The notes below the pieces were generated by a model. It did not search any database, was not told the DNA's origin, and saw nothing but the letters and a program-made list of their open reading frames with translations. A DNA stretch of 64,000 nt. Source: Undibacterium sp. KW1. GTDB taxonomy: Bacteria; Pseudomonadota; Gammaproteobacteria; Burkholderiales; Burkholderiaceae_D. Position 1 is the stretch's first letter. Every line of letters begins with the position of its first letter. A program made the position numbers and the translations under genes. This document shows positions 12,403 to 29,429 of this stretch, one piece after another. The stretch lies in the NCBI RefSeq assembly GCF_009937955.1, contig NZ_AP018439.1, positions 1,240,001-1,304,000 of the forward strand. Reading direction: 5' to 3'.

Positions 12403-12437
12403 GTTAAACAAAGTAAACTGACCAAAGTTTAAAAGAA

Positions 12438-12478
12438 ATTGCCGTGTTTCCCGCAAGGAAATACGGCAATTTTTATTT
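12438..12478 (+). terminator. Terminator of dctPQM
   Basis: ATTGCCGTGTTTCC (12438-12451) pairs with GGAAATACGGCAAT (12457-12470), with one G-T pair and a 5-nt loop. The run TTTTTATTTT follows. Confidence 0.9.
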
Positions 12479-12575
12479 TGGCAGAATTTAAATTGGTGTT
12501 GCCTAGCACATTTTTTAGGTTTATGATCGTTTTTCACATATCTGCAACAATGCACCGTTTTGTATCATTTTTGTT

Positions 12576-12604
12576 TTGAAAGCCAAAACTTGTCATGCTA
12601 TATT
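12576..12604 (+). promoter_or_regulatory. Sigma-70 promoter with no gene directly behind it
   Basis: TTGAAA (12576-12581), exactly 17 bp, then TATATT (12599-12604). Transcription would begin near 12611 and meet a strong terminator about 220 nt later, before any convincing reading frame. Confidence 0.6.
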
Positions 12605-12610
12605 CACGGC

Positions 12611-12835: not shown

Positions 12836-12848
12836 AAAAAGGAAAACC

Positions 12849-13381
12849 ATGTCGAATAAAGAAGCTAAGGAATCCAGGGAAACGGGCTTTTTCTCCGCCA
12901 TCGTCGCAGCCCCTTTTGGGGCCGTTGGCATACGTTGCGAAGACCAGAAAATCAGTGAACTGGTTTACTTGCCGCCACGTTTCCAGGAAAAAGCACCATC
13001 AGACAAAGTGGCTGAAAAAGCCGCCAGGCAAATAGCGGCTTATCTGGAAAATCCCGACTTTCAATTTGACCTGCCTTTGAAAGAGGCCGGCACGGCATTT
13101 CAGGGCAAGGTGTGGCATGCTATTTCTTCCATACCGCGCGGCCAGGTGCTGACCTACGGCCAGATTGCCAAGCATATACGCTCGGCACCACGTGCGGTTG
13201 GCCAGGCCTGCGGTGCCAACTGGTACCCGCTGGTTATCCCATGTCACCGCGTGACTGCTGCTGGTGGCCTGGGGGCTTTGCCCACAATGATGATGAAACC
13301 GGATTCCACCTTGGTGTAAAGCGCTGGCTGCTGACACATGAGGGCGTGGCCGGCTTTACCCAGGAAAAATTGTGGAAGTAA
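12849..13381 (+). pseudogene. ogt: Methylated-DNA-protein cysteine methyltransferase, frameshifted
   Basis: A suicide methyltransferase that would remove O6-alkyl groups from guanine. The ATG has AAGGAAAACC in front. The frame holds the DNA-binding part (FQGKVWHAISSIPRGQVLTYG), RAVGQACGANWYP and the active site VIPCHRV. Just after this it leaves the expected sequence and stops at 13319. The family's C-terminus (GGFAHNDDETGFHLGVKRWL, then THEGV) continues in another frame to 13381. Adding one G to the five-G run near 13271-13275 would rejoin them. The result is either a C-terminally altered protein, a dead gene, or a homopolymer sequencing error. The repaired reading frame overlaps xerD by 10 bp. 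Confidence 0.8.
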
Positions 13382-14295
13382 AACCGCTGCCTGTCATCTT
13401 GCCGGATAAATTGACGTCGCAAATCGATCAGTTTTGCGACGCACTATGGCTGGAAGACGGGCTGGCAAAAAATACCATAGAGGCTTACCGCCGCGACATG
13501 CGCCTGTTTGCCGAGTATTTGCACACAGATCAAGCTAAACATCTGTACGAAGTCAATCATGCTGACATAGGCAATTACATTGCAGCCAAACACGGCACAT
13601 CCAAAGCCAGTTCTGCTAACCGGCGCATGAGCGTACTAAAGCGATTTTATTTGCTGGCATTCCGTCAAAACCTGATCAGTGTCAATCCTTGCACCAAATT
13701 GCGCTCGGCCAAACAGGGACAGCGTTTGCCCAAAACCCTGAGCGAAGCCCAGGTCGTTGCCTTGCTGCAGGCACCGGATGAAACCAATCCCCATGGTTTG
13801 CGCGACAAGACCATGCTGGAACTCTTGTATGCCTGTGGCTTGCGTGTCAGCGAGCTGGTGGGTTTGCGATCTATAGAAGTCGGCTTGAACGAAGGCGTGC
13901 TGCGTATTACCGGCAAAGGCGACAAAACCAGGCTGGTGCCGTTTGGTGAAGTCGCCCGCACCTGGCTGGAACGCTATCTGCGTGAAGGCAGGCCAGCCAT
14001 ACTGAATGGCCAGATAGATGATGCCTTGTTCGTCACAGCCCGCGGTGGTGCCATGACCCGGCAAATGTTCTGGATACTTATCAAGAAGTATGCGATGCAG
14101 GCAGAAATTACGACGCACTTGTCGCCGCATACATTGCGTCATGCGTTTGCTACCCACTTATTGAACCACGGTGCTGATTTGCGGGTTGTGCAATTGTTGC
14201 TGGGCCATGCTGACATTTCAACGACGCAAATTTATACGCATGTGGCGCGTGAGCGTTTAAAAAAACTGCATTCCTTGCATCATCCACGTGGTTGA
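13372..14295 (+). CDS. xerD: Site-specific tyrosine recombinase XerD
   Basis: A 307-residue recombinase that, with XerC, resolves chromosome dimers at dif. The N-terminal SAM-like core-binding domain runs to about residue 110. The catalytic domain has the first Arg in YACGLRVSELVGL, then HTLRHAFATHLLNHG with His and Arg, GHADISTTQIYTHV with the second His, and the nucleophilic Tyr in QIYTHV. The start is GTG, overlapping the end of the frameshifted methyltransferase frame. A length near 300 residues and the C-terminal REKL-like RERLKKLH are normal for XerD. Confidence 0.94.
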   Translation: MEVKPLPVILPDKLTSQIDQFCDALWLEDGLAKNTIEAYRRDMRLFAEYLHTDQAKHLYEVNHADIGNYIAAKHGTSKASSANRRMSVLKRFYLLAFRQNLISVNPCTKLRSAKQGQRLPKTLSEAQVVALLQAPDETNPHGLRDKTMLELLYACGLRVSELVGLRSIEVGLNEGVLRITGKGDKTRLVPFGEVARTWLERYLREGRPAILNGQIDDALFVTARGGAMTRQMFWILIKKYAMQAEITTHLSPHTLRHAFATHLLNHGADLRVVQLLLGHADISTTQIYTHVARERLKKLHSLHHPRG

Positions 14296-14311
14296 GCGAA
14301 TGTGTGCAGAT

Positions 14312-14342
14312 AAAAAAATCCACGCATAGCGTGGATTTTTTA
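14312..14342. terminator. Bidirectional terminator between xerD and the S9 peptidase gene
   Basis: A run of A, then ATCCACGC-ATA-GCGTGGAT, then a run of T. It serves xerD on the plus strand and the peptidase gene on the minus strand. Confidence 0.9.
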
Positions 14343-14358
14343 ATTGAAGCGCATTGAT

Positions 14359-16344
14359 TTATTTTACGGCCGTATTCTCTTCCAGGAATTTTTCTACCCT
14401 GGTCCAGAAATCGACATTGTTTTTCAACAGGCGCCAGCCATGTGCTTCTTCCGGATAGGTGATCCACTCTATCTTTGCGCCAGTTGGTGCGGCATTTTTA
14501 AATTTTTCACCATGTACTAAAGGGACTCGTCTGTCCGCAGCACCATAGGCAAGAATTAATGGCTTGGTCAGTCTCTGTGCCTGTTCAACAGGTGAGGTTG
14601 CTTTTAGTTGCGCAGCATCCTTTTGCTGGTCACCGATTAGTATCGGCATACCAAAACGTTGCCATGCAGAGCCTTCCTGGTCACTCCAGGTTATGTCATA
14701 TAGTAAATTGATGTCTGATACACCTACCCAGCTAATACCACAACGGTACAGGTCGGGTTCCTTGATCAGCCCCATTAAGACTGCGTAGCCGCCGTAGCTG
14801 GCACCCGCTATACAAATTCTCTTTGGATCTGCATATCCTTTTTCGATCGCCCACTTGGTTGCGTCGGTAACATCGTCTTGCATGCCCAAGCCCCATTGCT
14901 TCCAGCCTGATTTGAACAAATTTTTACCATAGCCTTGGCTGCCGCGGAAATCTGGCTCCAATACGGCATAACCACGGGAAGCCAGGAATTGTGTTTGAGG
15001 GTTCCAGCCCCAATGACCTCCTCTGACATAAGGGCCGCCATGAACCATGACGACCATAGGCAGATTCTTGCCGGTACTGTTTCGCGGCAATGTTAGGTAC
15101 GCAGGGATTTCCAGGCCATCACGAACCTTAATCCGTATGAAGTCCTGATAAGACATCTTTTTAGAATCAACTTCTGGGAAGCTGTCGCCGATAGGTGTGA
15201 ATTTCTCGGTGTTAGTGTTATATAGCAAGACCGACCCAGGATGAATATCCGAGAATGAATTGACCACTAACACATCACTGTCGGCATTTTCCGCGACGCT
15301 TAGTAAATTCACTGTATTAGGTAGAACTGCATCAATCTTCTTTTGTATTATTTTGTATTTATCGTCGAGCCACATTGTTGCAGGCGCGTCTGTTTCATAC
15401 TGTATGCCTAAAAGTTTATTTTGCTTTTTGTTAAAGATGAAGCGACCAGCGAAGTCAAATCCTTTGGCGGAAACAATAGGTGTACTATCAATTTTATTTT
15501 TTTCAAGATCGTAGCGATAAACAGACTGCGTATCCTGTCCATTATTTGCAGTTACGTATAGTTGCCCGTCAGGAGCAATAAATGAAGGACTGAAGCCATC
15601 TTCTTTCTTACTGTCATAGTCGGTAAGCTTACGCCATGGTTTTTCATTTGCATCTTTGTAGTAAATAGCAGTTTTGTCATCCACACTGGTTATTGCAATG
15701 CGAACCTCACCAGACATATCCGCGAGGAAGCCAACAGAATTTGGTGGTGTTTGAATGGATTCGTTATAACCGGTAAGCGTATTTAACTTCAGAATGGTTT
15801 CAGATGGATTTTGTTTTGTACCTGTGCCACGCCCAACAAATACATCTTCAGAATTTTCCAGTCCAGTGGTGCTTATAAAATAATGGCGTGAAGTGAGGAT
15901 ACGGAATTTGCCTGAATTTCCCATTGTTTCTATGAGCTGGCGGAATTCTGAACCATCTTTATTGACCGCGAACAGGCCGCTATCTTTGAATACTTCACCC
16001 GCTCCAATTTTCCGATCACCGATACCGAAGACCAGTCTATTGTTGTTTACCCAAGAGAAGAACGTGATGTCATTTTTTTCGTAACGCGCCAGAATTTTGG
16101 GAGTCAGACTCGTTAGGTCCATGACTACCAGACCGAGCCTATCATTTTCACCTGCCGTGATCATCGCCAAATTCTTGCCATCTGGTGAAAACCGGACGCC
16201 ATTGATTTGCGAGTTCTTAAAAAACTTTTCAACCGGGATTTTTTCTTGTACTGGCGTCTGCGCATAGACAGGCAGCGTCAAACTGAAAGCGAGAGCTGTG
16301 CAGATGGAAAGTTGCCTGCACATGGTAGTGAGTACCTGTTTCAT
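14359..16344 (-). CDS. S9 family (prolyl oligopeptidase-type) peptidase, secreted
   Basis: A 661-residue serine peptidase with a signal peptide ending in LPVYAQT, so periplasmic or exported. The N-terminal two thirds look like a beta-propeller (repeated hydrophobic strands with DGKNLAMI, DGSEFRQL and similar blades). The C-terminal alpha/beta hydrolase has the nucleophile in GASYGG (Ser about 516), AYGAADRRVP with the Asp, and PEEAHGW with the His. HGGPYVRGGHWGWN is the oxyanion region. S9 enzymes of this type cut short peptides after proline or act as acylaminoacyl or iso-peptidases. It lies downstream of a TonB receptor gene on the same strand and is paralogous to the peptidase at 23514-25565. 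Confidence 0.9.
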   Translation of the reverse strand: MKQVLTTMCRQLSICTALAFSLTLPVYAQTPVQEKIPVEKFFKNSQINGVRFSPDGKNLAMITAGENDRLGLVVMDLTSLTPKILARYEKNDITFFSWVNNNRLVFGIGDRKIGAGEVFKDSGLFAVNKDGSEFRQLIETMGNSGKFRILTSRHYFISTTGLENSEDVFVGRGTGTKQNPSETILKLNTLTGYNESIQTPPNSVGFLADMSGEVRIAITSVDDKTAIYYKDANEKPWRKLTDYDSKKEDGFSPSFIAPDGQLYVTANNGQDTQSVYRYDLEKNKIDSTPIVSAKGFDFAGRFIFNKKQNKLLGIQYETDAPATMWLDDKYKIIQKKIDAVLPNTVNLLSVAENADSDVLVVNSFSDIHPGSVLLYNTNTEKFTPIGDSFPEVDSKKMSYQDFIRIKVRDGLEIPAYLTLPRNSTGKNLPMVVMVHGGPYVRGGHWGWNPQTQFLASRGYAVLEPDFRGSQGYGKNLFKSGWKQWGLGMQDDVTDATKWAIEKGYADPKRICIAGASYGGYAVLMGLIKEPDLYRCGISWVGVSDINLLYDITWSDQEGSAWQRFGMPILIGDQQKDAAQLKATSPVEQAQRLTKPLILAYGAADRRVPLVHGEKFKNAAPTGAKIEWITYPEEAHGWRLLKNNVDFWTRVEKFLEENTAVK

Positions 16345-16382
16345 TCTTTTTCCTATGTAATTTTTTTTGAAAAATAAGAAGC

Positions 16383-16419
16383 ACTAAAAATAAACGCCCC
16401 GGACTACGAGGCGTTTATT
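16383..16419 (-). terminator. Terminator between TonB receptor and S9 peptidase genes
   Basis: AATAAACGCC (16389-16398) pairs with GGCGTTTATT (16410-16419); read on the minus strand the stem is followed by TTTTTAG. It ends the receptor transcript about 40 bp before the peptidase start codon. Confidence 0.85.
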
Positions 16420-16439
16420 CATTTGACTACGTCATCAAA

Positions 16440-19325
16440 TCAACGGAAAACGTATTTTGCAGACAATGTGAAATAACGACCGAGGTTGTTATGCAAGGTT
16501 GAGCTGTAACCTTGTTGGACAGTTGCCAATGTAGTTGTTGGATTGTAAGGTGCTTTGGAATCAGTAATGTTTCTGATGTTGATGCCCAAAGTCAGATCTT
16601 TAAATCCAGTGTAAGTGTAGCCTACATCCAGAGTAGTCCAGCTTGGCACTTGGCAATCTGGGAAATACTTGGTGAAGTTAGGCTGGTTGGCAAAAGTCGC
16701 ACTTACACCGGCTGGTACGCCGCTACCATAATAGCAATATGGCGTGGAGTATGTCGTAGCATTATCATAACGACGCCATTGTGCGATACTGTCTGTGAAG
16801 TTGATCGCGCCGTATGCTGTATGAGGACCTTTTTCCCAAACGGTACGCAAAGTGGCACGCAGACGAGGGATTGGTCCAACAGATGTTGTCCAGTCATTGA
16901 TGCCACCGTTAGTACCAACGGCATTTCTTTCTACGTCGCCAGGAGACTCGGCGCGACGATAAGAAATCAGGTATGTGGATTTAAATGACGTCGACAGTTT
17001 GCCATTTTCACCCAGGTTGTTGCGCATTTTCAGCTCAACGTCCACACCACTGACTTCAGTACTACCTTGGTTAACCCAAGGAGTTTTTACTGCCAGCAAT
17101 GGGCCTGTATTTGGAATAGGATTACCAGCCGCATCTTTCAATTGATTCAGAGGATTAGTATCACGAATGATGTAATCAGCTGGGAATTGACTAGGATGAT
17201 CCAGCAGATATGTTGAGCTACTCAGGGCAACTTCACCTTCTTGGCGCAGTTTGTAGGCATCTATTACAACGTCAAAATTGGCTGTTGGAGAATAGATCAT
17301 ACCCAAGGCATAGCTCTTGGATTTTTCTGGCTTCAGGTCAGGATTAGCACCACCGACTCCAGAAATGCTCTTGGCGCAATCTACCTGCTCAGCACCCACT
17401 ACTGGATTTGAACCGTTAGGGCAGCGAACTGGGTCAACCGTATTGTTCAGGAAGAACTGGGCACCACCGGCGGCAACCTGAGACAAAGCTGGTGCACGGA
17501 AACCTTCAGCGTAAGTACCGCGGAACGCCAGACCATCAACAGCAGTCCATTTAGCACCGACTTTAGGTACGAAATTACCTTTGAACGTAGGATATTTATC
17601 GTAACGGCCAGCGAAATCCATCTCGAAGTTTTTCAGGAATGGCGTGCGGACCTCAAAGAATGCAGAAGAAACATTACGTTGAGAATCGATTGCAGTCGTT
17701 GCCAAACCAAGAATATCACCACGTGCATTGATAGGATCTGGAGCAATGGACAGTTTCTCTTGACGGAATTCAACACCTACTGCGAAGCCAATACCGCCGC
17801 CACCCAGTGAACCAAATTCTGTCGTTGCCTTGGCATCGACTTGAGTAATTTCAGCAGTTGCCTTGTTGGTCAAATTCGGGCTGATGGTTGGATCAGCTGC
17901 GATGGAAGCCAATGTGCGGTTTTCAGTAATCAGCTTACGCAATGTTGGTACGTACAGGAAACCGTATGCTACTTCTTCACGTTCGGAACGATTCCATAAG
18001 ACTGCGCTTTCCCAATCCCAGGAGGCGACGGTACCCTTCAGACCAGCAACCAGGCGTGCGCTCTTATTGTCAAGATCAGTACCTGTTTTCAGGTTTTCAA
18101 AGCGATACGAGACGGCAGAACGTGCATCTGGATTTGGATTGTCTGGATGACCAACAGGCAAGATAGCCTGGAATGGCGTAGCCAAACCACCAACCAGGAA
18201 GTTGGTAGTTGGAGACGTGCCGCTGATAGTGCGTGGTGACGAGCGATAAACACGCTTGGAATCAGTGTAAGCAAACTCACCGAAAGCGGACAGTTTGTCA
18301 TTGATCTTCAAATTGCCGACTGTCATGAAATTAACGTCGTCACCCTTGGTTTGCGCATCAACGTCTGCATCTTGATTGTAGTTACAGAACGTGCGACCTC
18401 GCAATACACTAGTAGTGGCGATATTGTGTTCTGGGCCACCTACCAATTTACGGGATGCATCGCAATTGGTTTGATTAATAACAGTTGCACCTGTCGTGAA
18501 GAAAGACAGTGAACCAGGAGTACGTTCCTTGAAGAAGAAAGCCTGGTTGGATACGCTGCTGCTGAATGGATTTGCGCGGAAATTGATATCTGCATAGGCT
18601 TGTGCATTGATATCATTCGAGCCATTCGCCATGGTTGTGGCGTTTTGTTTTCTGTAATCCAGAGCAAATAACACATTGTAGCCCTGGCTGGCGTAGTCGC
18701 CGAAGCCTATCGTGCCATTGACATTTTGACGACCGAATTCGCGATCATCGTTAGCTGCTGCAGTTACAGAAACTTCGCCACCTTGATAATCACGTTTGGT
18801 GATGAAATTGATAACGCCAGCTACCGCGTCAGAACCATATACTGCTGACGCGCCATCTTTGAAAATTTCTACTTTTTCAATGGCAGACAGAGGAATACTG
18901 TTCAGATCGTACAGTGTGGATTGACCATTGTTTGGATTTGCATACGCAGACGGCGTCATGCGGCGACCATTCAACAGGATGAGGGTAGAGGTCGAACCCA
19001 GGCCGCGCAAAGATGCTGTCGCAACGCCGCGGGAGAAACCATTTTGGTCTGGTGTATCGTTATAACCACCAGTACCCATGGATGGAACGCTCTTCAACAG
19101 TTCAAGAACTGTTGTTGCACCACTTTGCTTGATTTCTTTAGCAGTGATGGTTTGTATCGGTGATGTACCTTCTTTATCAGCGCGTTTGATGTTCGAGCCG
19201 GTAATTTCAATACGTTGTGGTGCTTCAGTCTGAGCGTGGGCATAACCCCCGATCAGCATGGAGCCAGCAAATACGCTGAGCGCCAGGCGCACGGACTGCA
19301 CGCCTATTTTTTCTTTAAATATCAT
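16440..19325 (-). CDS. TonB-dependent receptor 1
   Basis: An outer-membrane ligand-gated channel of 961 residues. I chose the ATG beginning MIFKEK because AGAGGGAACAATA precedes it; the frame is open 59 codons further. The signal peptide ends in GYAHAQ. The plug domain has EITGSNIKRADKEGTSPIQ, LRGLGSTSTLILLNGRRMT and KDGASAVYGSDAVAGVINF, and the barrel ends in the aromatic FTLSAKYVFR. Its N-terminus resembles that of the receptor at 25668-28268 (KEK...VR.AL...AGSML), so the two are paralogues. This plug type often imports peptides or saccharides rather than siderophores. The ligand is not known. Confidence 0.92.
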   Translation of the reverse strand: MIFKEKIGVQSVRLALSVFAGSMLIGGYAHAQTEAPQRIEITGSNIKRADKEGTSPIQTITAKEIKQSGATTVLELLKSVPSMGTGGYNDTPDQNGFSRGVATASLRGLGSTSTLILLNGRRMTPSAYANPNNGQSTLYDLNSIPLSAIEKVEIFKDGASAVYGSDAVAGVINFITKRDYQGGEVSVTAAANDDREFGRQNVNGTIGFGDYASQGYNVLFALDYRKQNATTMANGSNDINAQAYADINFRANPFSSSVSNQAFFFKERTPGSLSFFTTGATVINQTNCDASRKLVGGPEHNIATTSVLRGRTFCNYNQDADVDAQTKGDDVNFMTVGNLKINDKLSAFGEFAYTDSKRVYRSSPRTISGTSPTTNFLVGGLATPFQAILPVGHPDNPNPDARSAVSYRFENLKTGTDLDNKSARLVAGLKGTVASWDWESAVLWNRSEREEVAYGFLYVPTLRKLITENRTLASIAADPTISPNLTNKATAEITQVDAKATTEFGSLGGGGIGFAVGVEFRQEKLSIAPDPINARGDILGLATTAIDSQRNVSSAFFEVRTPFLKNFEMDFAGRYDKYPTFKGNFVPKVGAKWTAVDGLAFRGTYAEGFRAPALSQVAAGGAQFFLNNTVDPVRCPNGSNPVVGAEQVDCAKSISGVGGANPDLKPEKSKSYALGMIYSPTANFDVVIDAYKLRQEGEVALSSSTYLLDHPSQFPADYIIRDTNPLNQLKDAAGNPIPNTGPLLAVKTPWVNQGSTEVSGVDVELKMRNNLGENGKLSTSFKSTYLISYRRAESPGDVERNAVGTNGGINDWTTSVGPIPRLRATLRTVWEKGPHTAYGAINFTDSIAQWRRYDNATTYSTPYCYYGSGVPAGVSATFANQPNFTKYFPDCQVPSWTTLDVGYTYTGFKDLTLGINIRNITDSKAPYNPTTTLATVQQGYSSTLHNNLGRYFTLSAKYVFR

Positions 19326-19925
19326 TATTGTTCCCTCTTTGTTGATAGACCAGATGCAATCGGGTGCCGGATCCGTTTGGCAGACAGGTTTAGTTCTAAA
19401 ATTTTGTAAATTTACAAACAATCCTGTACTGCTACCTGATGAAATGCTGCCAAATCCATCCTCTTTATAATTGCGTGCGGGAAGTGAAAGGCAATGAATC
19501 AAACAGAACTTTATTATGTAAATAAAATACCTTTGCGGGAAAGCATTTGTTACTTTTTTTTGAGTGCTTGTTGTTTGACAACGACAAGAAATGAAAATTT
19601 AATTTCTAATTTTCCATGAAATTGGATTTTCAGTATCTTTTTGGAAATTCATTTATTTTCATATAAATTCCAGTTATAAGCTTATAAAAGCTGGAAAAAG
19701 GTATCAGTTTCAAGAAAATATGATGGATTTGGAGTCATTTAGCGGTCTAATATAAAGTCAGGAAATGCGAAAAAATTTTCAAATTTCCGAATTTCTGCAA
19801 AAATCTGACCTGCTAATAAGTTCCTGCGATATGTAAGAACTTGTAACGAAAAACAAGGTCTATGAACTGAGCAAAGCCATGCTCAGTGAGTAGTTTGCGG
19901 CCAATTCATCTAACCAGGAAAAAAT
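19326..19925. other. Divergent, very AT-rich regulatory region
   Basis: About 600 bp between receptor 1 and the metalloprotease, without a credible gene. It holds a 14-bp perfect palindrome TTATAAGCTTATAA (19674-19687) framed by TTCCAG (19668-19673) and CTGGAA (19691-19696), a likely operator. ACTGAGC-AAAGCCAT-GCTCAGT (19866-19887) would be a hairpin in the metalloprotease 5' leader. Confidence 0.55.
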
Positions 19926-22571
19926 ATGAAATTGTCAAAAGAAGTACATTTTAAGAAAAAGACCTTACTCCTTTTGTTATGTGCACTGAGTGAGGCAGCC
20001 CTTGCCCAGACACCTCCCGCGACCCCGGCCTCTGCGCCTGCTACAAATGGCACTGCGACAGCCACACCAGCGGTTGCGCCAGCGCCTGCAACAGCACCTC
20101 CTGTTGGATTGCGTCCTTTTAAAGATGTTATCAAAGACGCTAAAGAGCTCAAGGGATTTTTTAATTTGTACCAGAAAGACGACAAAGTCTGGCTGGAAAT
20201 TCGTCCTGAGCAATTTGATAAACCATTCTTGTTTACTTACAACATCCCGAATAGCATCGGTGAGCGTGGCTTATATGGCAGCCAGATGGGGCGTGGATAT
20301 CAGGCCGTGTTCAAAAAAATTGGCAACCAGGTACAACTGCTGGCCAAGAATACCCAGTTTTATGCCACTCCAGGCACACCACAGGCGCTCGCTGTTTCGC
20401 AGGCGTTTTCAGATAGTCTGCTGGCCAGCGCCAGCGTATTGAGTACGCCCAATTCAGAGTCGAAAGGCATCCTGGTCGATGCCAGTGCCTTGCTGTTCAA
20501 TGATATCCCTGGTTATTCAACGAGCCTGGAATATGCCTACCGCACCATGTATGTCCTGGACAAGGCCAATACCAGCTTCGGCAAGCTGAATACGGATGAG
20601 TCTCTGGCAGGTTTTTTTGTCAATGCACATTTCATGACACCACGCATTGCTGCTTCTCCATTGGTGCCACCGCCAGTAGCTCTGCCTACGCCCCCACAAA
20701 CGACACCTGATCCGCGCAGCTTTTTCGTAGGTTTTTATTTTAATTTCTCAGCGCTGCCAACTGAAGCCATGCGACCACGCCTGGCAGATGACAGGCTCGG
20801 GCATTTTGTGACGACCAGCTACGATTTCACCGAAGACCTCAAACCCAAGACTTCGCGTTACTACGTGAATCGCTGGCGCCTGGAAAAACAAGACCCAACA
20901 GCCGCACTGTCGGAACCAAAACAGCCTATCGTCTATTGGCTGGACAAGAACGTGCCAGAGAAATATCGTAAATCGATCACTGAAGGCGTGCTCGAATGGA
21001 ACAAGGCTTTTGAAAAGATAGGCTTCAAAAACGCCGTGGTCGTCAAACAGCAAACTGAAAAAGACGCTTTTGATACCATGGATTCTCGCCATGCCTCGAT
21101 ACGCTGGTTTGTCGGTGCAGACGTCGGCTTCGCTATTGGCCCTTCACGTGTCGATGAGCGCAGCGGCGAAATTCTGGATGCAGACATCGGTATGTCGGAT
21201 GTCTTTGCCCGCGGTGCCCGCCGCATGATAGGTGAAGATGCACAGACACATGCGCTGCATGCCCAGGGTGACTGTCATTTTGCCCACGAAGCATCAATGG
21301 AAATGGGGTTCGCCATGGACTTGCTGGATGCCCGTGGTGAAATGGACATGGACAGCCCAAAAGCCGAAGCACTGGCACAAGCCTATGTCAAAGACGTCAT
21401 CATGCACGAAGTTGGCCATACACTGGGTTTGCGTCATAACTTCCGTTCTTCCACTATCTATACCCTGAAGCAATTGCAAGACCCGGCTTTTACCAAGGTT
21501 AATGGCCTGGCTGGCTCAGTCATGGACTATGTGCCTTTCAATCTGGCGACCAAGGGTGAGCCTCAGGGTGAATACGTCATGTCTTCCCTCGGCCCCTATG
21601 ATTACTGGGCAATTGAATATGCCTACAAGCCCATCGATGCCGACAAGGAAAAAGATGAGCTGACCCGTATTGCTTCACGTTCTACCGAGCCTTTGCTGGC
21701 GTATGGTACGGACGAAGATTCTGCTGGCACCATGGTTTCTGATCCTGACGTCAATGTGTTTGATCTGGGCTCTGACCCTCTGGTCTATATACAAAAACGT
21801 TTGACGATTTCACGCGAATTGTGGGACAGGTTGCAAACACGTCAGTTAAAAGCGGGTGACAGCTATGAAACCCTGCGCCGTAGTTTTGAATACGGTTTTG
21901 GTCAGTTTGCCCGTACCGTACCTCTGGCGACGAAATATGTTGGCGGCACCACTTTCTTGCGTGACCACGCCGGTACAGGCCGTGCCACGTTCACGCCTAT
22001 CGCGGTAGAACGTCAACGCCAGGCTTTGAAGCTGGTCTCTGAGAGCTTGTTCACGGCCAAGAGTTTTGTATTTACACCAGAGCTCCTGAGCCGTTTGGGT
22101 GTCGATCACTTCCAGCGTGCCAACCGTAATGACGTGTCCATCTCCGCACGTTTGCTGAGTCTGCAAACTGCGGCCCTGGATCAATTGATGTCTGATCTGG
22201 TGGCACAACGCATGCTCAATAATGCCGAGAAATTGCGCGACCCTAAAAAGGTATTGTCCCTGCATGAGCTGTACGGCAACCTGCAGTCGAATATCTGGAG
22301 TGAGCTGGCAAGTGGTACAGATATCAGTTCGGCCCGCCGCAATCTGCAACGTGAACACCTGAAGCGTTTGTCGAATGCCTTGCTGAAACCGTCTGCAACT
22401 ACACCGGCTGATGCCCGTAGTTTGCAAAGGGAACAGGCAAATCAGTTGCTGGTAGCTATCCGTGGTGCGGTCGGCAAGCCTATGAGCCCGGAATCCCGTG
22501 CGCATTTGTCGGAAAGTCTGGCTACCTTGAATGAAGTATTGAAGGCTTCACTGGTGAGGGCTGGCGTTTGA
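19926..22571 (+). CDS. Large zinc-dependent metalloprotease (DUF4953/DUF5117 type)
   Basis: An 881-residue exported protease. The signal peptide (LLLLLCALSEAALAQ) is followed by a low-complexity Ala/Pro/Thr stretch (about residues 24-62), probably a flexible linker. A conserved N-terminal domain follows, then the zinc site HEVGHTLGLRH at about 494-504, the extended metzincin-like HExxHxxGxxH motif. GSVMDYVPFN, about 25 residues later, gives the Met-turn. The family is usually periplasmic or outer-membrane associated in Gram-negatives, with an unknown substrate. It diverges from receptor 1 and precedes the GG-leader peptide gene. Confidence 0.9.
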   Translation: MKLSKEVHFKKKTLLLLLCALSEAALAQTPPATPASAPATNGTATATPAVAPAPATAPPVGLRPFKDVIKDAKELKGFFNLYQKDDKVWLEIRPEQFDKPFLFTYNIPNSIGERGLYGSQMGRGYQAVFKKIGNQVQLLAKNTQFYATPGTPQALAVSQAFSDSLLASASVLSTPNSESKGILVDASALLFNDIPGYSTSLEYAYRTMYVLDKANTSFGKLNTDESLAGFFVNAHFMTPRIAASPLVPPPVALPTPPQTTPDPRSFFVGFYFNFSALPTEAMRPRLADDRLGHFVTTSYDFTEDLKPKTSRYYVNRWRLEKQDPTAALSEPKQPIVYWLDKNVPEKYRKSITEGVLEWNKAFEKIGFKNAVVVKQQTEKDAFDTMDSRHASIRWFVGADVGFAIGPSRVDERSGEILDADIGMSDVFARGARRMIGEDAQTHALHAQGDCHFAHEASMEMGFAMDLLDARGEMDMDSPKAEALAQAYVKDVIMHEVGHTLGLRHNFRSSTIYTLKQLQDPAFTKVNGLAGSVMDYVPFNLATKGEPQGEYVMSSLGPYDYWAIEYAYKPIDADKEKDELTRIASRSTEPLLAYGTDEDSAGTMVSDPDVNVFDLGSDPLVYIQKRLTISRELWDRLQTRQLKAGDSYETLRRSFEYGFGQFARTVPLATKYVGGTTFLRDHAGTGRATFTPIAVERQRQALKLVSESLFTAKSFVFTPELLSRLGVDHFQRANRNDVSISARLLSLQTAALDQLMSDLVAQRMLNNAEKLRDPKKVLSLHELYGNLQSNIWSELASGTDISSARRNLQREHLKRLSNALLKPSATTPADARSLQREQANQLLVAIRGAVGKPMSPESRAHLSESLATLNEVLKASLVRAGV

Positions 22572-22662
22572 TCCAGTCGTTTAAAATAGTCGTTTAGTGC
22601 AGTCATTTTTTGCAGCATCCAGTATTAGCATCATTTTCAGATACTGACTGCTGGCAAGCTTG

Positions 22663-22693
22663 AAAGCCCCGTGTAAAAGCACGGGGCTTTTTT
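22663..22693 (+). terminator. Terminator of the metalloprotease gene
   Basis: AAAGCCCCGTG-TAAAAG-CACGGGGCTTT followed by TTT. It separates the protease from the peptide gene, so they are different transcripts. Confidence 0.92.
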
Positions 22694-23161
22694 CATGTTT
22701 GCTGAAAAAATAGAATAGCGAACGACTGTTTTGCCCTTTACTTTAGCTGAGTAAGTAATGCATGCCAAGGTGTAAATTGAACGTATTTTTCAATTGCATT
22801 GCTGATTTATTCTGATATCAAATGCTTGTATAAATGGGAAAAAATTTATCCATTTATTGTTGAGGTAGCATTCATTGTGTGATATTTTATAAAATATAAT
22901 TTGGCAACTTATGCTGACTTAAAAGTGTGCTATCGATATGTGTTTTTTGCTGCTTTTTTTAAGTTAAAGCAGCCTTTATTTGCCTGTGCTGTTGGATATA
23001 TGGCTGGGTGAAGAAGTGCGGAAAAAGAATTCAGGCATGTGAATGTATGCATGAAAGTGCATAGTCCCGTGTCAGGATGCTGTTCCAGGCACAAAAAGCC
23101 GGGAATGGTGCAAATGCTCATGTCTGAACAGACATGATTTATTTACCTACAGTAGTGTCAA
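22694..23161. other. AT-rich region upstream of the GG-leader peptide gene
   Basis: About 470 bp with no gene I can support. The only clear structure is TCATGTCT-GAAC-AGACATGA (23118-23137), a perfect 8-bp stem with a tetraloop ending 24 bp before the peptide start codon. It could be an attenuator or mRNA-stabilising leader; TTTATTT follows it. Confidence 0.5.
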
Positions 23162-23356
23162 ATGCGTTTGATTTCAAATGAAGAATTGAGCCTGATTGCC
23201 GGCGGTGACGGTGAAAGTCCAGATAATCCAATCATTGCCTCACCAGTTGAGATTGTTGGGGTTGTCCCCAGAGAAATTGTAGGGCCAGGAAATCCCCCCC
23301 GCCCTAATGGACCGATCCCTACTCCTTATCAGCCGCCTATCACTAAAATAGAGTGA
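23162..23356 (+). CDS. Small proline-rich peptide with double-glycine leader
   Basis: A 64-residue product. The first 15 residues, MRLISNEELSLIAGG, match the double-glycine leaders cleaved by C39-peptidase ABC exporters. The predicted core of 49 residues contains 13 prolines, one Arg-Glu-Ile-Val-Gly repeat of an earlier Val-Glu-Ile-Val-Gly, and no cysteine, so it is neither a lanthipeptide nor a disulfide bacteriocin. The gene is bracketed by a leader hairpin and its own terminator. No exporter or modifying enzyme lies nearby, but two S9 (proline-type) peptidase genes flank the locus. It could be a bacteriocin, a signal peptide or a substrate of those enzymes. No strong ribosome binding site is visible. 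Confidence 0.65.
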   Translation: MRLISNEELSLIAGGDGESPDNPIIASPVEIVGVVPREIVGPGNPPRPNGPIPTPYQPPITKIE

Positions 23357-23374
23357 GCCTGAGTTAGATTCTTG

Positions 23375-23404
23375 AAAAGCGCCAAATTCTTGGCGCTTTT
23401 TTAT
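23375..23404 (+). terminator. Terminator of the GG-leader peptide gene
   Basis: AAAAGCGCCAA-ATTC-TTGGCGCTTTT, then TT. An 11-bp stem about 20 bp after the stop codon, strong support that the short gene is a real transcription unit. Confidence 0.92.
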
Positions 23405-23435
23405 TGCTGGTATCTTGCAATTTCATTTTTACAGA

Positions 23436-23469
23436 ACAAAAAAGTCCCCTGCAATGACAGGGGACTTTT
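23436..23469 (-). terminator. Terminator of the second S9 peptidase gene
   Basis: AAAAGTCCCCTG-CAATGA-CAGGGGACTTTT; on the minus strand it is followed by a T-run (the A-run at 23438-23443). Confidence 0.92.
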
Positions 23470-23513
23470 GTCTTGCATAGCGAAATTAACTGCGCTTGTT
23501 TAAAACAACAAAA

Positions 23514-25565
23514 TTATTTCTTTAAACATTGAGCAAAGAATTTTTCGCTCCGGTTGTACAAGTCAAATACGTTAACGTCTTTGTTAAAACCATGCCCTTC
23601 TTCTGGATAGACTTTGTAATCCAGGGTTTTACCAGCTTTCAACAAGGCATCACGCATTTTTTCTCCATGAATCAGAGGAACGCGTCTGTCATCCGAGCCC
23701 ATGGTCAGCATGATGGGGCCTTTGACGTTGGCGGCATTCCTGGCTGGTGAGCGCAATTCAAACAAGGCCGCATCGGTTTTGGAATCGCCTACCCAGAGTT
23801 TGAATTCATTGTTCAGGTAGCCACCGGTTGCCGCGTCGGCATTTTCAGAGGTATCTGACCAGGAAACGTTCTGCAAGAGGCCGAGATCACTGACGGCTAC
23901 GACAGAACTGGCGCAACGCCACAAATCAGGGTCTCTGGTCATGCCCTGCAGGGATGCGTAGCCACCGTAACTACCACCCATCAGCGCCATGCGTTTTTTA
24001 TCGACGATGCCCTCCTGCACCAGGAACATGGCACCATCATTGATATCATCCTGCATGGTGCCGCCCCATTGCTTCCACGCCTTGACATAATGGTTGCGAC
24101 CATAGCCTTCTGAGCCGCGTGGTTCCAGTTCCAGGACGGCATAGCCACGCGAGGCAAAGAATTGCGCTTCAGGCCAACGACCCCAGGAAGAGAAGTGATA
24201 TCCACGCACCATAGGGCCGCCATGAATATTCATGATCAATGGCAGGTTCTTGGCTTCAGTGCCTTTAGGCAAGGTCAGGTAGCCATACACAGGCAAGCCA
24301 TCGCGGGCCTTGAAACCTATGTATTTGCGCTCTGCCATCAAGGCCGGACTTGCCCATTCACGGTCCTGCACTATGGGTTCCAGGGTTTTCTTTTGAGTAT
24401 CAAACAAATAGTAAATGCCGGATTGGATATCTGAAGTGGCATGGACCAAGGCTTTGCTTCCATCAGAAGACAACCTGAAGGCGTTGTGGGTTGCTGGCAG
24501 GGAGGCATCGATTTGTTCAGTCAGGGATTTTCTTGCGCTATTGCCAAACCAGATGCGCGTCGGTTTAGCTGCATCATAATACAAGCCGACGACCTTGCCA
24601 GTCTCGTCATCGACTTCGCGTATCAAGCGTGCGCTGGCACTCTGGCCATTGATATCAAATATAGGGTCTGCATGCACCAGCTCACCAAATTTCTTGGTGA
24701 CAGTGTCATACTTGAACACGGCCATTTTATCCAGGCCATCTTTGTTGGTAGAGACATACAAGGTGCGGTCATCATTGTCAAAGCCGAGCACGTCGTACAT
24801 CGTGCCATCGTTGTAGCTGGATTGTTCAAATATTTTTTCCCATTTGTCACTGTCGGGAGCACGGTGATAGTAAGCCGTCATCTGTGGCTGACCAGCTGCC
24901 GGACGGATTTCACCTCTTTGTGCGATGCGCGGACGTTTGTGAGTATCCAGTTCCCAGCCTTCTGTACGGCCTGGTGACTCAAACGTCAATAATTGCGAGC
25001 GCCTGGTTTTGAAGTTGAATTTATAGACATCCGCATATTCCTTGCTTCTTCCACGCATGGAAACATAGGCTTCTGGCGAATCATTACCTTCTGCCATGAT
25101 GATGCTGTCAATATGAATGTCGCCTTTCTTGCGTTCATTCGTATTTTCCAGCTCCATGCTTTTATCATTGTCTATATCGTAGTAGTAGGAGCCTTTATAG
25201 ACAAAACGGCCCCTCGCTTCTTGTCCGTCGGCAGTGCGATAGAACAGATACTTATTACCTACCCAGCGACTCTCGGCAACGTCAAAGCGGGGAGATGAAG
25301 TGATGACTTTGGCTTTGCGCGTAGCAAGATCTATCAATACCAGATTGCCACGGCCATTCAGTGGCACGATGGCGGCAATGGTTTTTCCATCTGGTGACAT
25401 CGACAAGTCACGGTAATCAGTCAGCTTGAAGAAAACTTCTACCGGTATGTCAGCAGCACTCTGATACGCCTTGGCTTCTGCTGGGGCTCCGGCATGTGCA
25501 GCGTAGATAGGCAAGGCAGCAAAAGCGGCAACGATCACATGTTGCAGCGTTGTACGAAATTTCAT
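23514..25565 (-). CDS. S9 family (prolyl oligopeptidase-type) peptidase, secreted
   Basis: A 683-residue exported serine peptidase, paralogous to the one at 14359-16344. The ATG beginning MKFRTT is preceded by TTAGGAGTAAAC; the signal peptide ends in YAAHAG. A propeller-like N-terminal part is followed by the hydrolase domain: HGGPMVRGYHFSSWGRWPEA, RGSEGYGRNHY, nucleophile in GGSYGG (Ser about 532), GSDDRRVPLIHG and PEEGHGF. It follows receptor 2 with a terminator in between. Its role may be to degrade or open peptides brought in by the receptor. Confidence 0.9.
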   Translation of the reverse strand: MKFRTTLQHVIVAAFAALPIYAAHAGAPAEAKAYQSAADIPVEVFFKLTDYRDLSMSPDGKTIAAIVPLNGRGNLVLIDLATRKAKVITSSPRFDVAESRWVGNKYLFYRTADGQEARGRFVYKGSYYYDIDNDKSMELENTNERKKGDIHIDSIIMAEGNDSPEAYVSMRGRSKEYADVYKFNFKTRRSQLLTFESPGRTEGWELDTHKRPRIAQRGEIRPAAGQPQMTAYYHRAPDSDKWEKIFEQSSYNDGTMYDVLGFDNDDRTLYVSTNKDGLDKMAVFKYDTVTKKFGELVHADPIFDINGQSASARLIREVDDETGKVVGLYYDAAKPTRIWFGNSARKSLTEQIDASLPATHNAFRLSSDGSKALVHATSDIQSGIYYLFDTQKKTLEPIVQDREWASPALMAERKYIGFKARDGLPVYGYLTLPKGTEAKNLPLIMNIHGGPMVRGYHFSSWGRWPEAQFFASRGYAVLELEPRGSEGYGRNHYVKAWKQWGGTMQDDINDGAMFLVQEGIVDKKRMALMGGSYGGYASLQGMTRDPDLWRCASSVVAVSDLGLLQNVSWSDTSENADAATGGYLNNEFKLWVGDSKTDAALFELRSPARNAANVKGPIMLTMGSDDRRVPLIHGEKMRDALLKAGKTLDYKVYPEEGHGFNKDVNVFDLYNRSEKFFAQCLKK

Positions 25566-25575
25566 GTTTACTCCT

Positions 25576-25604
25576 AAAAATGGGGGCACTAGGCCCCCAA
25601 AAAT
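25576..25604 (-). terminator. Terminator between receptor 2 and S9 peptidase genes
   Basis: On the minus strand TGGGGGC-CTAGT-GCCCCCA is followed by TTTTTA. The T-run almost touches the AGGAG ribosome binding site of the peptidase gene, so termination here directly sets peptidase synthesis. Confidence 0.85.
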
Positions 25605-25667
25605 TTGATCCTGTATTTACTTTACATGGATGCAATGCTGCGTGTTTTTTTTCAATAATCGCTTTGA

Positions 25668-28268
25668 TTATTTGAACGCGTACTTAACAGAGAATTGGAA
25701 ACGACGGCCAAATGGACTGTTATAACCTGAGTTGTATGGGAATGAACCATTATTCAGCGCGCTACGGGCATCAAATGGTGGCTTGGTATCGAACAGGTTG
25801 GAGATGTTCAATGCCAGTTCCATGTTTTTGAAGCCCTTGTAACCTGTAAACCAGTTCCAGGTTGTTGTGGAAGCTACGCGGCAGTAGGAAGCAGGAGCGC
25901 CATAGATGATGTCGATCTTGCAGCTCTCTGCCGGTGTACCAACATAGTCATAACCAGAGATATAGTTACCAGACGCTTCATGTGACCATGGGCCTTTTTC
26001 CCAGCCAACTGCGAGGGAGCCACGGAATTCAGGCTGGCTGTAGGTCTTGTTGTAATCAACCGTTTCGCTATCCGGGAATGGCGTTGTCAGATATTCCCTG
26101 GTCAGGGACATTTTTGAACGGAAGTTCAGTTTGCCGTATTCACCCAGATTCTGTTTGCCCTTGAAGTCCAGATCAAAACCACTGACCTGTGTTTTACCGA
26201 TATTGATGTACGGCAGGTTTACTTCAGTGATATGACCACCTTTATCGCGGGTAATGTATTTCGCGAAGTTAGGGTCTTTCTGGTTCGACAGCAAATAGGT
26301 GATGTCCAGAGAGCTGATTTCATCACGACGTTCTATCTTGTAATAGTCTAGGGTGACGCTATAGTCCTTGACAGGTTCCCAAACGATACCGATGGTGTTG
26401 CTGGTGGATTTTTCTGGCTTGAGGTTGGCATTACCAGAAATGTTTGCCTTCAGCGAGATATTGCAGTCTGGTTCTTCACCAGTCTGGCACAGTACCGGAT
26501 CTTGCTGGCCGTTATAGAAACCAACTGAGACAGATGGAGAAATTTCACGGAAGTTAGGCGCACGGAAGCCTTTTGCAATCGTGCCGCGCAACACTACAGT
26601 TGGAAGCACACTCCATTTTGCACCTATCTTCGGTGTCAGAGAATTGCCACCGACACTGTAATTATCTGCACGCACCGCAGTGGACAGTTCCAGGGATTTC
26701 AGTACAGGCAGATTCAACTCACCATACGCAGATGCGACATTACGGCTGGAGAATGGCAACTTTGGCAAACCACCGATGGAATAAACGCGTTGATCCAGGA
26801 AGTACTGGTCGTCGACGTCACTGGTGGATTCGCGGCGGTATTCAATACCGGCAGCGCTACCGGCAAAGCCACCTGGCAATTCAAACAATTCAGAATTACT
26901 GACTTTGAGATCAGCAAACCAGGTTTTATTTTCGCCCTGACGTCTCAACATAGGAGAGATTCTGGCGCGCACATCAGCTGCATTGTTGGCGGCGCCAGGC
27001 ACATAAGTGCCATTTGCCAGTGCGGCTTCCATCTGATCGGTGATGATGAATCCGCGTTGATCTACGTTGACTTTACTTTGCAGGTAGCCGAGCGACGTAT
27101 CATATTCCCAACTGCCCAATGTGCCTTTGAAACCGCCGATGACACGTGTTTCAGTATCCTTGACATCAATAGTGCGGGCACCCAGGTCGCCGGTACGCAC
27201 CAGGTAACTCTTACCGCCAGCTATCGTGAAAGTGCCAGCGTCGTCATTCGCGTAAAACTGTGGATCAAAACGCAAATTGGTTTTGATTTGCGTGACCCCA
27301 GCTTCGATGAAGAAACTGTGATTCGCGCTGAACTGATATTCGCCACGGGCGAAGAAGGAATCGTTGGAACGTTTTGGAACCGCATCAGTCCAGTCAAAAC
27401 GATCCAGCAGGCAGCGGCCGTTTGGTGCCAGGTTAGCTGTAGGGCATCCTGGCAGGGCAGTAATCACGTTATTGATCAGGACATTGCCAGGTACGGAGTA
27501 AGCTGTGCGGCGATCGCCTTTGGTAATGCCAAAACCACGGTAATCCTGGCTGTTATAGGCATTGATGTCGCGCATGGACAGTGCATCAGAGTCGTGATGC
27601 TCGAAAAAGCCCATCAGATTAAACTTGTCTGCTGCAATATCGCCCATGCCATAGGAGAGATTGAAGTCTTTGGATTTTGCCTTGCCGTGAGAGGTTGTGC
27701 CACCACTGACTTTGACTTCGCTGCCAGTGTAGTCTTTTCTCAGCCAGATATTGATTACGCCTGCGATCGCTTCCGAACCATAGATTGCGGATGCGCCATC
27801 GAGCAGGACGTCGATATGATCAACGGCACCGACAGGTATCGCGTCAAGATTGGCAAATTGTGACTGGAAGCCGGTAATGCCATATTGTGCAACACGGCGG
27901 CCATTGACCAGTACCAGAGTGGCGCCGCTACCCAGACCGCGCAGGGATGCAGTTGTTGCGCCAGGAGAGAAACCGTTGTATTCAACACCGGTCAGGGCGC
28001 CGGCATTGTTTGAAGAAAGATTTTGAATAACAGATGACAGACTGGTGGCACCTGTTTTTTCCAGCTCGGCCCTGGTAATGATCTGTACCGGTGAGGCACC
28101 TTCGGTCTGTACACGTTTGATGTTTGAACCGGTAATTTCAATTTTTTGCAGTTTTGCAGGTTCTTCTGTAACGGCTTGCGCGTAACCGTTCATGGTGAGC
28201 ATAGAGCCGGCCATCAGGCACAGGGCAGTACGCACCAATTGAGAAGCTTTTTTTTCTTTCAGGTACAT
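25668..28268 (-). CDS. TonB-dependent receptor 2
   Basis: An 866-residue outer-membrane receptor. The signal peptide ends in NGYAQA. The plug has KIEITGSNIKRVQTEGASPV, LRGLGSGATLVLVNGRRVAQ and LLDGASAIYGSEAIAGVINI; the barrel ends in RFQFSVKYAFK with a terminal aromatic residue. It shares plug motifs and the N-terminal KEK..S..VR.AL...AGSML with receptor 1, indicating duplication of the receptor-peptidase module. AAGGTGGAAG precedes the ATG. The ligand is unknown; peptide is a reasonable guess given the downstream peptidase. Confidence 0.92.
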   Translation of the reverse strand: MYLKEKKASQLVRTALCLMAGSMLTMNGYAQAVTEEPAKLQKIEITGSNIKRVQTEGASPVQIITRAELEKTGATSLSSVIQNLSSNNAGALTGVEYNGFSPGATTASLRGLGSGATLVLVNGRRVAQYGITGFQSQFANLDAIPVGAVDHIDVLLDGASAIYGSEAIAGVINIWLRKDYTGSEVKVSGGTTSHGKAKSKDFNLSYGMGDIAADKFNLMGFFEHHDSDALSMRDINAYNSQDYRGFGITKGDRRTAYSVPGNVLINNVITALPGCPTANLAPNGRCLLDRFDWTDAVPKRSNDSFFARGEYQFSANHSFFIEAGVTQIKTNLRFDPQFYANDDAGTFTIAGGKSYLVRTGDLGARTIDVKDTETRVIGGFKGTLGSWEYDTSLGYLQSKVNVDQRGFIITDQMEAALANGTYVPGAANNAADVRARISPMLRRQGENKTWFADLKVSNSELFELPGGFAGSAAGIEYRRESTSDVDDQYFLDQRVYSIGGLPKLPFSSRNVASAYGELNLPVLKSLELSTAVRADNYSVGGNSLTPKIGAKWSVLPTVVLRGTIAKGFRAPNFREISPSVSVGFYNGQQDPVLCQTGEEPDCNISLKANISGNANLKPEKSTSNTIGIVWEPVKDYSVTLDYYKIERRDEISSLDITYLLSNQKDPNFAKYITRDKGGHITEVNLPYINIGKTQVSGFDLDFKGKQNLGEYGKLNFRSKMSLTREYLTTPFPDSETVDYNKTYSQPEFRGSLAVGWEKGPWSHEASGNYISGYDYVGTPAESCKIDIIYGAPASYCRVASTTTWNWFTGYKGFKNMELALNISNLFDTKPPFDARSALNNGSFPYNSGYNSPFGRRFQFSVKYAFK

Positions 28269-28850
28269 ATATTTTCACTTCCACCTTAAGTTGTTATTAA
28301 TTTTATCGGCGGCAATCAAACCGTTTTGCTGTTGTATGGTCGGTTTGGTCAGCATCGATAGGGCAAACTACATGGCCTGTTATATTTTTTTAGCCATGCA
28401 GGCAAAGCCAGAATGAAGATCTGGCTTGCGCGGTATTATGTAATGGGATGTAACAGAATTGTTAATAATTGTTGCTTGCAAACTACGGAAATAAATATTA
28501 TGCATTTAATAAATATGAAATTTTGTAAATCATTATTTGAGGCTTGAGAATTCGAAAATTCTCATATTTTCCTGACATTATTTTGTGCTTTTTTTATTTG
28601 TGATCTTGCATCTTGATGAAATTGAATTTTTGTAGTTCAAATATGTTTCTGGCTTGTCTGAAGTTTGTTCAGCAGCGTTTTTAATGTTTGCACTTCATTC
28701 GACGTATTCGATACCTGGGTTTGCAAGTTCATTCTTGCCAATAGCCCAAATTAAATGATGTTGAACACACACTTGCGTCCCAGCCAGACATCCTGAGGCG
28801 ATATAATCTGTGCCTGTTTTTTTGCAAATCCAGTTTTTTGAGAGTGTAAT
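28269..28850. other. AT-rich intergenic region between receptor 2 and ybaK
   Basis: About 580 bp without a gene. It contains AAGCCAGA-ATGAAGA-TCTGGCTT (28405-28427), a leader hairpin for receptor 2, and TGAGAATT-CGAA-AATTCTCA (28545-28564), a perfect 8-bp dyad that could be an operator. I saw no other structure. Confidence 0.5.
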
Positions 28851-29342
28851 TTGGCTAAGAAAGAACATGTATCAGTCACTCAGGCAACTCAGTTGCTGCG
28901 CAAGCACAAGGCTGAGTTTACCGAGCACCCGTATGCGTATGAAGAACATGGCGGCACTTCAGTGTCTGCCCGTGAACTCGGTGTGGATGAGCACCACGTT
29001 GTGAAAACCCTGGTCATGCAGGATGAAGCTGCCAAGCCCATGATCGTGCTCATGCATGGGGACAAAAAGGTTTCTACCAAAAACCTGGCTCGGCAGATAG
29101 GCTGCAAGTCAGTCGAACCCTGCAAGCCTGAAAATGCGCAAAAGCATTCAGGTTACCTGGTTGGCGGCACGTCTCCCTTTGGCACTAAAAAGGCCATGCC
29201 TGTTTATGTGGAGCGCAGCATACTGGCGCTGCCAAAAATTTATATCAATGGTGGCCAGCGCGGCTATCTGATCGGCATTGCCCCCAGCTTGCTGGAAAGT
29301 CTGTTGCAGGCACGGCCAGTCGATTGTGCCATCGACGAATGA
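28851..29342 (+). CDS. ybaK: Cys-tRNA(Pro) deacylase YbaK
   Basis: A 163-residue cytoplasmic editing enzyme that hydrolyses cysteine wrongly attached to tRNA(Pro). The family pattern is clear: GGTSVSARELGVDEHHVVKT, KKVSTKNLARQIG, and GYLVGGTSPFGTKKAMPVYV with the catalytic-site Lys and Gly residues. The likely start is TTG (MAKKEH), preceded by GAGAGTG. It precedes plsY in the same direction, 87 bp apart. Confidence 0.93.
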   Translation: MAKKEHVSVTQATQLLRKHKAEFTEHPYAYEEHGGTSVSARELGVDEHHVVKTLVMQDEAAKPMIVLMHGDKKVSTKNLARQIGCKSVEPCKPENAQKHSGYLVGGTSPFGTKKAMPVYVERSILALPKIYINGGQRGYLIGIAPSLLESLLQARPVDCAIDE

Positions 29343-29429
29343 ATCCAGTTTCAAGAATTTTGCGAGGCTGGCTGATTCTGCTACTGGCCTGGCTTATACT
29401 TGCGAAGCTTAAAGAAATGAAGGAATAAG

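Follow-up and report, generated by a model that had tools for sequence, protein, structure and literature searches.

Pairs consisting of a TonB-dependent receptor and a secreted S9 peptidase serve nutrient peptide uptake. The pairs described here resemble these in that the two genes are adjacent and on the same strand, the proteins carry signal peptides (judged by eye, as for all secreted proteins in this study), and the peptidases have the S9 fold and triad motifs; they differ in that three exchangeable types occur at one chromosomal slot and in that a whole pair has been replaced between sister genomes. A second system with a comparable gene neighbourhood is the isopeptidase-type lasso peptide cluster, for which the passages of PMC9266682 on AtxE2 and SpI-IsoP place a TonB receptor beside an enzyme of the prolyl-oligopeptidase family, an arrangement that is also seen here. 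A literature search for TonB-dependent receptors, S9 family peptidases and prolyl oligopeptidases together returned nothing, nor did one for double-glycine peptides in Oxalobacteraceae.

The window, i.e., the whole stretch of DNA that was analysed, comprises 64,000 nucleotides (positions 1240001-1304000 of contig C1 in the 6.69 Mb Undibacterium genome G000); unless stated otherwise, coordinates refer to it. The slot that concerns us is bounded on the left by xerD, encoding a tyrosine recombinase (13372..14295, plus strand; TIGR02225 XerD 372.8 bits, cut-off 329.6), and on the right by a ybaK-type Cys-tRNA(Pro) deacylase gene (28851..29342, plus strand; TIGR00011 164.1 bits, cut-off 153.25). 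Between them lie, in this order, genes for a secreted S9 peptidase of type A (14359..16344, minus strand; PF00326 Peptidase_S9, 1.7e-39); a TonB-dependent receptor of type A (16440..19325, minus strand; Plug and TonB barrel by Pfam, N-terminal QRIEITGSNIK); a secreted metzincin-like zinc protease (19926..22571, plus strand; DUF5118-DUF5117-Met-zincin, PF16313 6e-81, HEVGHTLGLRH); a 64-amino-acid peptide with a double-glycine leader and a 49-residue core containing 13 prolines (23162..23356, plus strand); a secreted S9 peptidase of type B (23514..25589, minus strand; Peptidase_S9 by Pfam, 3.4e-44); and a TonB-dependent receptor of type B (25668..28268, minus strand; Plug and TonB barrel by Pfam, N-terminal QKIEITGSNIK). 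The first-pass annotation of this DNA had placed five large genes and the peptide gene at these positions and had described two receptor–S9 pairs enclosing an exported zinc protease and a double-glycine peptide; the genes exist as described, and Pfam confirmed the domains. For the type A receptor, the open frame extends to a TTG at 19502, and the ATG at 19325, picked by eye on the signal peptide, is the likelier start. Terminator-like hairpins lie 3′ of the metalloprotease gene (22662..22691, plus strand), of the peptide gene (23374..23401, plus strand; −16.5 kcal/mol, z −4.9; found by folding and absent from the pattern-scan list) and of the type B S9 gene (23440..23469, minus strand). An Rfam scan of 12000-30000 gave no match. 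The whole genome contains 28 S9 matches, 55 receptor plug matches and one C39 match.

Both S9 proteins retain the G-x-S-Y-G-G, D-R-R-V-P and E-E-x-H-G motifs, and the type B protein shows the beta-propeller plus alpha/beta-hydrolase fold of the family. Among the structure matches listed, their closest solved relatives are acylaminoacyl peptidases, puromycin hydrolases and other S9 peptidases; AtxE2 is not among these matches, an absence that does not speak for a different fold, and it has a weak sequence match (39 bits) to the type A protein. Against the lasso isopeptidase model NF033523, the two proteins score 59.8 and 59.1 bits, far from the 400-bit cut-off, in support of the earlier proposal that this locus represents a class different from the lasso systems. 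Neither a lasso precursor nor B/C genes were found among the genes identified in or beside the slot, and neither GntR nor a sigma/anti-sigma pair among those in the slot.

The two modules had also been described as duplicated. They are indeed paralogous, but the split between A and B is ancient, as the S9 proteins are about 33% and the receptors about 31% identical, and a recent duplication of one module is thereby ruled out. Comparing 29 S9 proteins, 22 from labelled slots and seven from elsewhere, and assigning each pair to the nearest of three reference pairs (A, B and a third type, X), we determined that all 26 adjacent same-strand S9–receptor pairs agree in type; the other three S9 genes, all type A, lack an adjacent receptor. 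Receptor and S9 distances correlate closely across the 26 pairs (Mantel r=0.978, P<=0.0005), as they do within types (A, 0.866, n=13; X, 0.911, n=9; B, 0.998, n=4, P=0.09). The accompanying flank tree was built on slot-adjacent genes and omits the loci without ybaK or plsY (G298, G300, G304, G308 and the second G307 contig). Receptor and S9 genes are adjacent and inherited together as units, and the shared history on which the first-pass reading had depended is strongly supported.

The xerD–ybaK gap is a variable chromosomal slot in the genus. Of the 43 genus genomes, 41 gave a xerD match, and the slot survey comprises 40 labelled loci from 39 genomes (G307 twice), 35 of them closed on both sides; G297 and G306, where xerD was not matched, and G295 and G309, where it sits at a contig end, fall outside it. 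Three closed slots (G259, G270, G299) are bounded by plsY, the gene after ybaK, no ybaK being labelled there. Fifteen of the 35 closed loci are empty, with a xerD–ybaK gap of at most 181 bases, while receptor, S9, metzincin or C39 cargo occupies 16 and other small genes occupy four. Modules together with the metzincin occur in six slots: this genome and its sister G296 have the A-type pair, the metzincin, the peptide and B, and G241, G310, G187 and G259 have A, the metzincin and, on the opposite strand, X. Furthermore, three closed slots hold A alone, and another four have X but lack a complete A module, one of these four with an A-receptor fragment and one with an additional receptor; one closed slot holds an A-like receptor only, another holds two other receptors, and that of G176 holds a peptide-export cassette and no receptor modules. 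Among the five open loci, B directly adjoins xerD in G298, two loci show A, and two end too early to reveal their content. Thus, the comparison of gene order in related genomes that the first-pass annotation had called for reveals varying slot content with recurring combinations of A, B and X. The metzincin, present in six surveyed slots, is always found alongside modules, a link that is positional only. Site-specific integration by the neighbouring recombinase is not favoured: the enzyme scores as housekeeping XerD and is present at empty and full slots alike, so that we do not take it to be the integrase of the slot cargo.

The whole type A pair has been replaced as a unit between the sister genomes. 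At the protein level, this genome and G296 are 98% identical for XerD, 98% for the metzincin, 96% and 99% for the module B proteins, 98% for YbaK, 95% for PlsY and 100% for the peptide, as against 57% and 58% for the two module A proteins. The tract that differs (14100..19200) corresponds to a wholesale replacement of module A: DNA identity to G296 is 0.53-0.77 per 250 bases across 14500-19250, divergence sets in raggedly on the left, over about 14.1-14.45 kb, and stops sharply on the right at about 19.2 kb, a short way within the start of the receptor gene. As G300, G241 and G310 share this genome's version of module A (S9 79%, receptor 82-96% identical), the replacement most likely occurred in the sister, judging from these identities. 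None of the fetched proteins qualifies as the source of the module A in G296, the best identity being 59%. A unit replacement at a fixed site offers a naturally occurring test of receptor–substrate matching, since the sisters differ there mainly in module A.

The 64-amino-acid peptide is likely to be a real gene, given that its 195 bases differ from those of the sister by a single, synonymous change and that it has its own terminator-like hairpin. Adjacent intergenic stretches are 84-97% identical, and about 7-8 changes would be expected in 195 bases (Poisson P 0.004-0.009 for one). The full-length peptide occurs in only two of the 43 genus genomes, this one and the sister, with no further full-length match in 294 sampled genomes of the family (a sample without the sister), and a large protein set contains two near-identical variants of it. 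Its double-glycine leader, noted in the first-pass annotation, is real: a leader profile of 22 columns, derived from 19 relatives with the window peptide excluded, matches it at E=7.6e-10. A search with this leader yielded 24 matches at E<=1e-5 in 14 of the 43 genomes, of which 18 are rows of the profile and six are independent (the window peptide, the sister copy, two in G259 and one each in G241 and G308). HlyD and/or C39 genes adjoin 22 of the 24, the exceptions being the window peptide and the sister copy. The only C39 match in this genome lies at 602928, 0.66 Mb from the window peptide, in a cassette that also contains an HlyD gene, a relative of the window peptide 2 kb from C39, and a 410-amino-acid protein without a Pfam match; around the window peptide itself, tblastn detected no exporter-gene remnants. 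On the evidence of its leader, the window peptide is a displaced orphan of this putatively C39-exported double-glycine family, and its export by the C39 system 0.66 Mb away is plausible. The window peptide lacks the Shine-Dalgarno-like ATAGGAG stretch that is present upstream of 11 of 15 aligned relatives. A palindrome 24 bases upstream of its start (23118..23137, plus strand) folds no better than shuffles. Relatives have hairpins at about the same distance before the peptide start, with stems that, by eye, differ from locus to locus.

We are somewhat inclined to the view that the slot has collected two exchangeable peptide-uptake modules, with the double-glycine peptide standing outside the circuit as a microcin-like product whose HlyD/C39 cassette is elsewhere. 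The secreted metzincin and other proteases would generate peptides, the TonB-dependent receptor would import them across the outer membrane, and the imported peptides would then be trimmed in the periplasm by the S9 enzyme of the same pair. We propose that receptor and S9 enzyme remain paired, and are swapped as a unit, because the specificities of uptake and digestion must match. Module substrates and the direction of transport are what we infer here, and the pairing of S9 enzyme and receptor might have a purpose other than nutrition. The alternative that fares best, possible although we think it rather unlikely, is coincidence, i.e., that an orphan peptide gene, possibly decaying, lies stranded beside ordinary nutrient-uptake genes. 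The restriction of the full-length peptide to two genomes, the missing ATAGGAG stretch and the lack of a detectable exporter remnant nearby would all fit a stranded gene, but the deficit of changes relative to the sister, the pair of near-identical variants from the large protein set and the hairpin of its own argue against this alternative.

The relatives' loci, having HlyD and/or C39 genes, resemble those of class II microcins of the microcin V type, which combine a double-glycine leader, an HlyD-type adaptor and a C39 ABC exporter; they differ from these in a TonB-box-like motif in ten of the 22 scored members and in accessory genes of M16-type, retropepsin-like and TraB/PrgY/GumN affiliation along with weaker ClpP-like and alpha/beta-hydrolase matches. 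The cassette in the G176 slot (L042:4749-11020), for instance, consists of HlyD, a peptide, a weakly ClpP-like gene, C39, a second peptide and a CAAX-type gene. When 16 cassette neighbours were scanned with Pfam, HlyD, C39 and XerD being excluded, the matches above the cut-off were two M16-type proteins, two retropepsin-like aspartyl proteases, one TraB/PrgY/GumN protein and one CAAX-type, Rce1-like protein; below it came single ClpP-like, alpha/beta-hydrolase and unrelated matches and a second CAAX-type one; and the remaining neighbours had no match. CAAX-type genes follow two of the relatives, one of these genes being above the cut-off and the other just below. In the export loci L124, L132, L137, L126 and L122, a protease or protease relative (M16-type, TraB/PrgY/GumN or retropepsin-like) lies near the peptide. 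The space between the peptide and exporter genes is thus repeatedly, though not invariably, taken by a protease-like gene. PrgY restrains self-pheromone, and CAAX proteins can confer bacteriocin immunity; from the gene assignments, self-protection is a possible role for the protease-like gene of the cassettes.

These cassettes bear on a second alternative, to which we give a small chance: that the slot is the site of an arms race in which the exported peptide would act as a weapon or signal of microcin-like kind, the swapping of receptors would allow escape from peptides that use them for entry, and the secreted proteases would confer resistance. The whole-module replacement in the sister, the turnover among genomes, the presence of a peptide-export cassette in the G176 slot and the several cassettes elsewhere that place a protease or its relative between peptide and exporter are all in keeping with this. 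However, a neutral insertion site would also show turnover, killing and immunity are putative, G176 is a single genome, and five of the scanned accessory genes are without a Pfam match.

Some members of the peptide family seem to carry a motif resembling the TonB box, a motif that lets proteins into bacterial cells. The receptors of this genome have boxes such as QRIEITGSNIK and QKIEITGSNIK (in the window) and GRVEITGKRVG (elsewhere), and the stretches that follow the double glycine in the peptides include QVVEITGKR, QTVEITGNR, QRVEIVGNR and QTVEVRGKR. We scored the peptides with matrices built exclusively from this genome's own receptors (30 of the 55 plug matches, those that came with the loci). 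With the first matrix (11 columns, 30 receptors), scores of 11.7-19.9 bits were reached by seven of the 22 leader-defined peptides (shuffle P<=0.014 in every case), and the P values of all 22 combine to 1.7e-9; about 4% of control stretches scored as high, the controls including receptors, and the top 25 controls were all receptor-type boxes. For the second matrix (nine columns, 27 boxes, three receptors being left out, with BLOSUM pseudocounts), the controls, taken from the fetched slot and export loci, were reduced from 659 to 627 by removing 32 that were receptor-like by BLAST, and to 624 by removing three more that were judged to be receptors by reading. Ten of the 22 peptides, or eight of 19 when redundancy is removed, exceeded the 99th percentile of the 627 non-receptor controls (binomial P 6e-15 and 7e-12, respectively), although the peptides are mutually related, so that both counts and P values overstate independence. 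With 624 controls, ten of 22 were again above the threshold, and five scored above every control. Only one of the 22 reversed cores passed the threshold, and matrices with permuted columns gave a mean of 0.9 and a maximum of 7, never 10, in 200 trials. Of 22 peptides of other leader classes, 17 were scored and all fell below the threshold (maximum 7.9), five being unscored (one in L111, two in L112 and two in L117). The leader-defined set of 22, of which the window peptide is a member, omits two leader matches (G241 C7:246573 and G308 C57:21299) and includes one peptide from G238, which belongs to another genus of the family.

Twelve of the 22 peptides were below the threshold. Among the ten positives is the exporter-linked peptide of this genome, which scores 11.2 bits at core position 47; three others have the motif at positions 23-31, likewise some way from the core start. 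Double-glycine peptides of export loci with the motif after the cleavage site are encoded at L137:9007-9351, L122:10154-10480, L126:8799-9164, L128:8937-9197, L132:11459-11620, L062:11320-11589 and L062:13361-13627. Among relatives found with a profile that contains the motif, 20 of 21 were positive, this being a biased set; two of these relatives, P0027 and P0029, have QQVVVTGTR and QQVVITGTR, respectively, one residue after the double glycine. Comparison of peptides and receptors beyond the nine-residue box revealed no likeness (lowest shuffle P 0.076), so the resemblance does not reach past it. The controls that exceeded the threshold include a 253-amino-acid secreted protein with STVIVTATR and no NCBIfam match, encoded in the C39 locus of G298 (L135:9161-9922). 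The window peptide has no TonB-box match, scoring 2.5 bits, a value reached by 45% of the 627 controls; a TonB box in it, suggested by VEIVG, is thus unsupported.

That the exported double-glycine peptide re-enters through the type A or type B receptor, with the S9 enzymes opening or degrading it, strikes us as improbable, for while the sister has retained both the peptide and module B, the peptide's family occurs with exporters, proline makes up 13 of the 49 core residues and the box-like motif in ten of the 22 scored members would link the family to the TonB system, co-occurrence is limited to the two sister genomes, no such peptide lies beside the type B modules of G298 and G276, the sister's module A was replaced with the peptide unchanged, and the window peptide itself lacks the box. 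The first-pass annotation had proposed a system of peptide secretion and recapture, of which the receptor–S9 module is borne out, while a role of the peptide as ligand of the modules is unsupported: A, B and X pairs occur without the peptide, and the conserved co-occurrence that the proposal required is not seen across the 43 genomes. Recapture of the lasso type is lowered further by the profile scores. Peptide scavenging fits better than recapture by these modules.

The TonB box of group B colicins sits N-terminally. The box-bearing peptides described here would share with these colicins, secreted proteins with a TonB box (PMC12511343), the combination of secretion and a box-like motif, and differ in having cores of 35-121 amino acids, a double-glycine leader and C39 export, colicins being large multidomain toxins. 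A microcin review (PMC10233263) gives TonB-dependent receptors for a number of class II microcins. Our literature search returned nothing joining double-glycine peptides and the TonB box, and we do not claim that small microcins with a TonB box are missing from the literature. A broader and speculative reading, which we regard as doubtful, is that peptides exported by HlyD/C39 systems in Undibacterium, many with a TonB box of their own, would enter cells via TonB receptors, colicin-like at microcin size; that many cassettes would add a different exported protease-like gene for self-protection; and that the xerD–ybaK slot, by virtue of its swapped receptor–S9 pairs, its metzincin and its orphan peptide, would be the side that both receives and resists in this contest. 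If the motif is functional, it would mark a class of small TonB-dependent bacteriocins recognisable by sequence, and would be relevant to how microcins that are small and have no TonB box, e.g., microcin V, get across the outer membrane. This side result, one step outside the window, is the most valuable lead of the analysis and may matter more than the module swap.

A separate, multi-copy class of double-glycine peptides was observed at the C39 loci L112 (G296), L113 (G187) and L115 (G241), each of which encodes four to six tiny peptides, mostly of 25-34 amino acids, with a leader of approximately MRVLTxxEILxVAGG and a core of approximately PEVDVESGGG.
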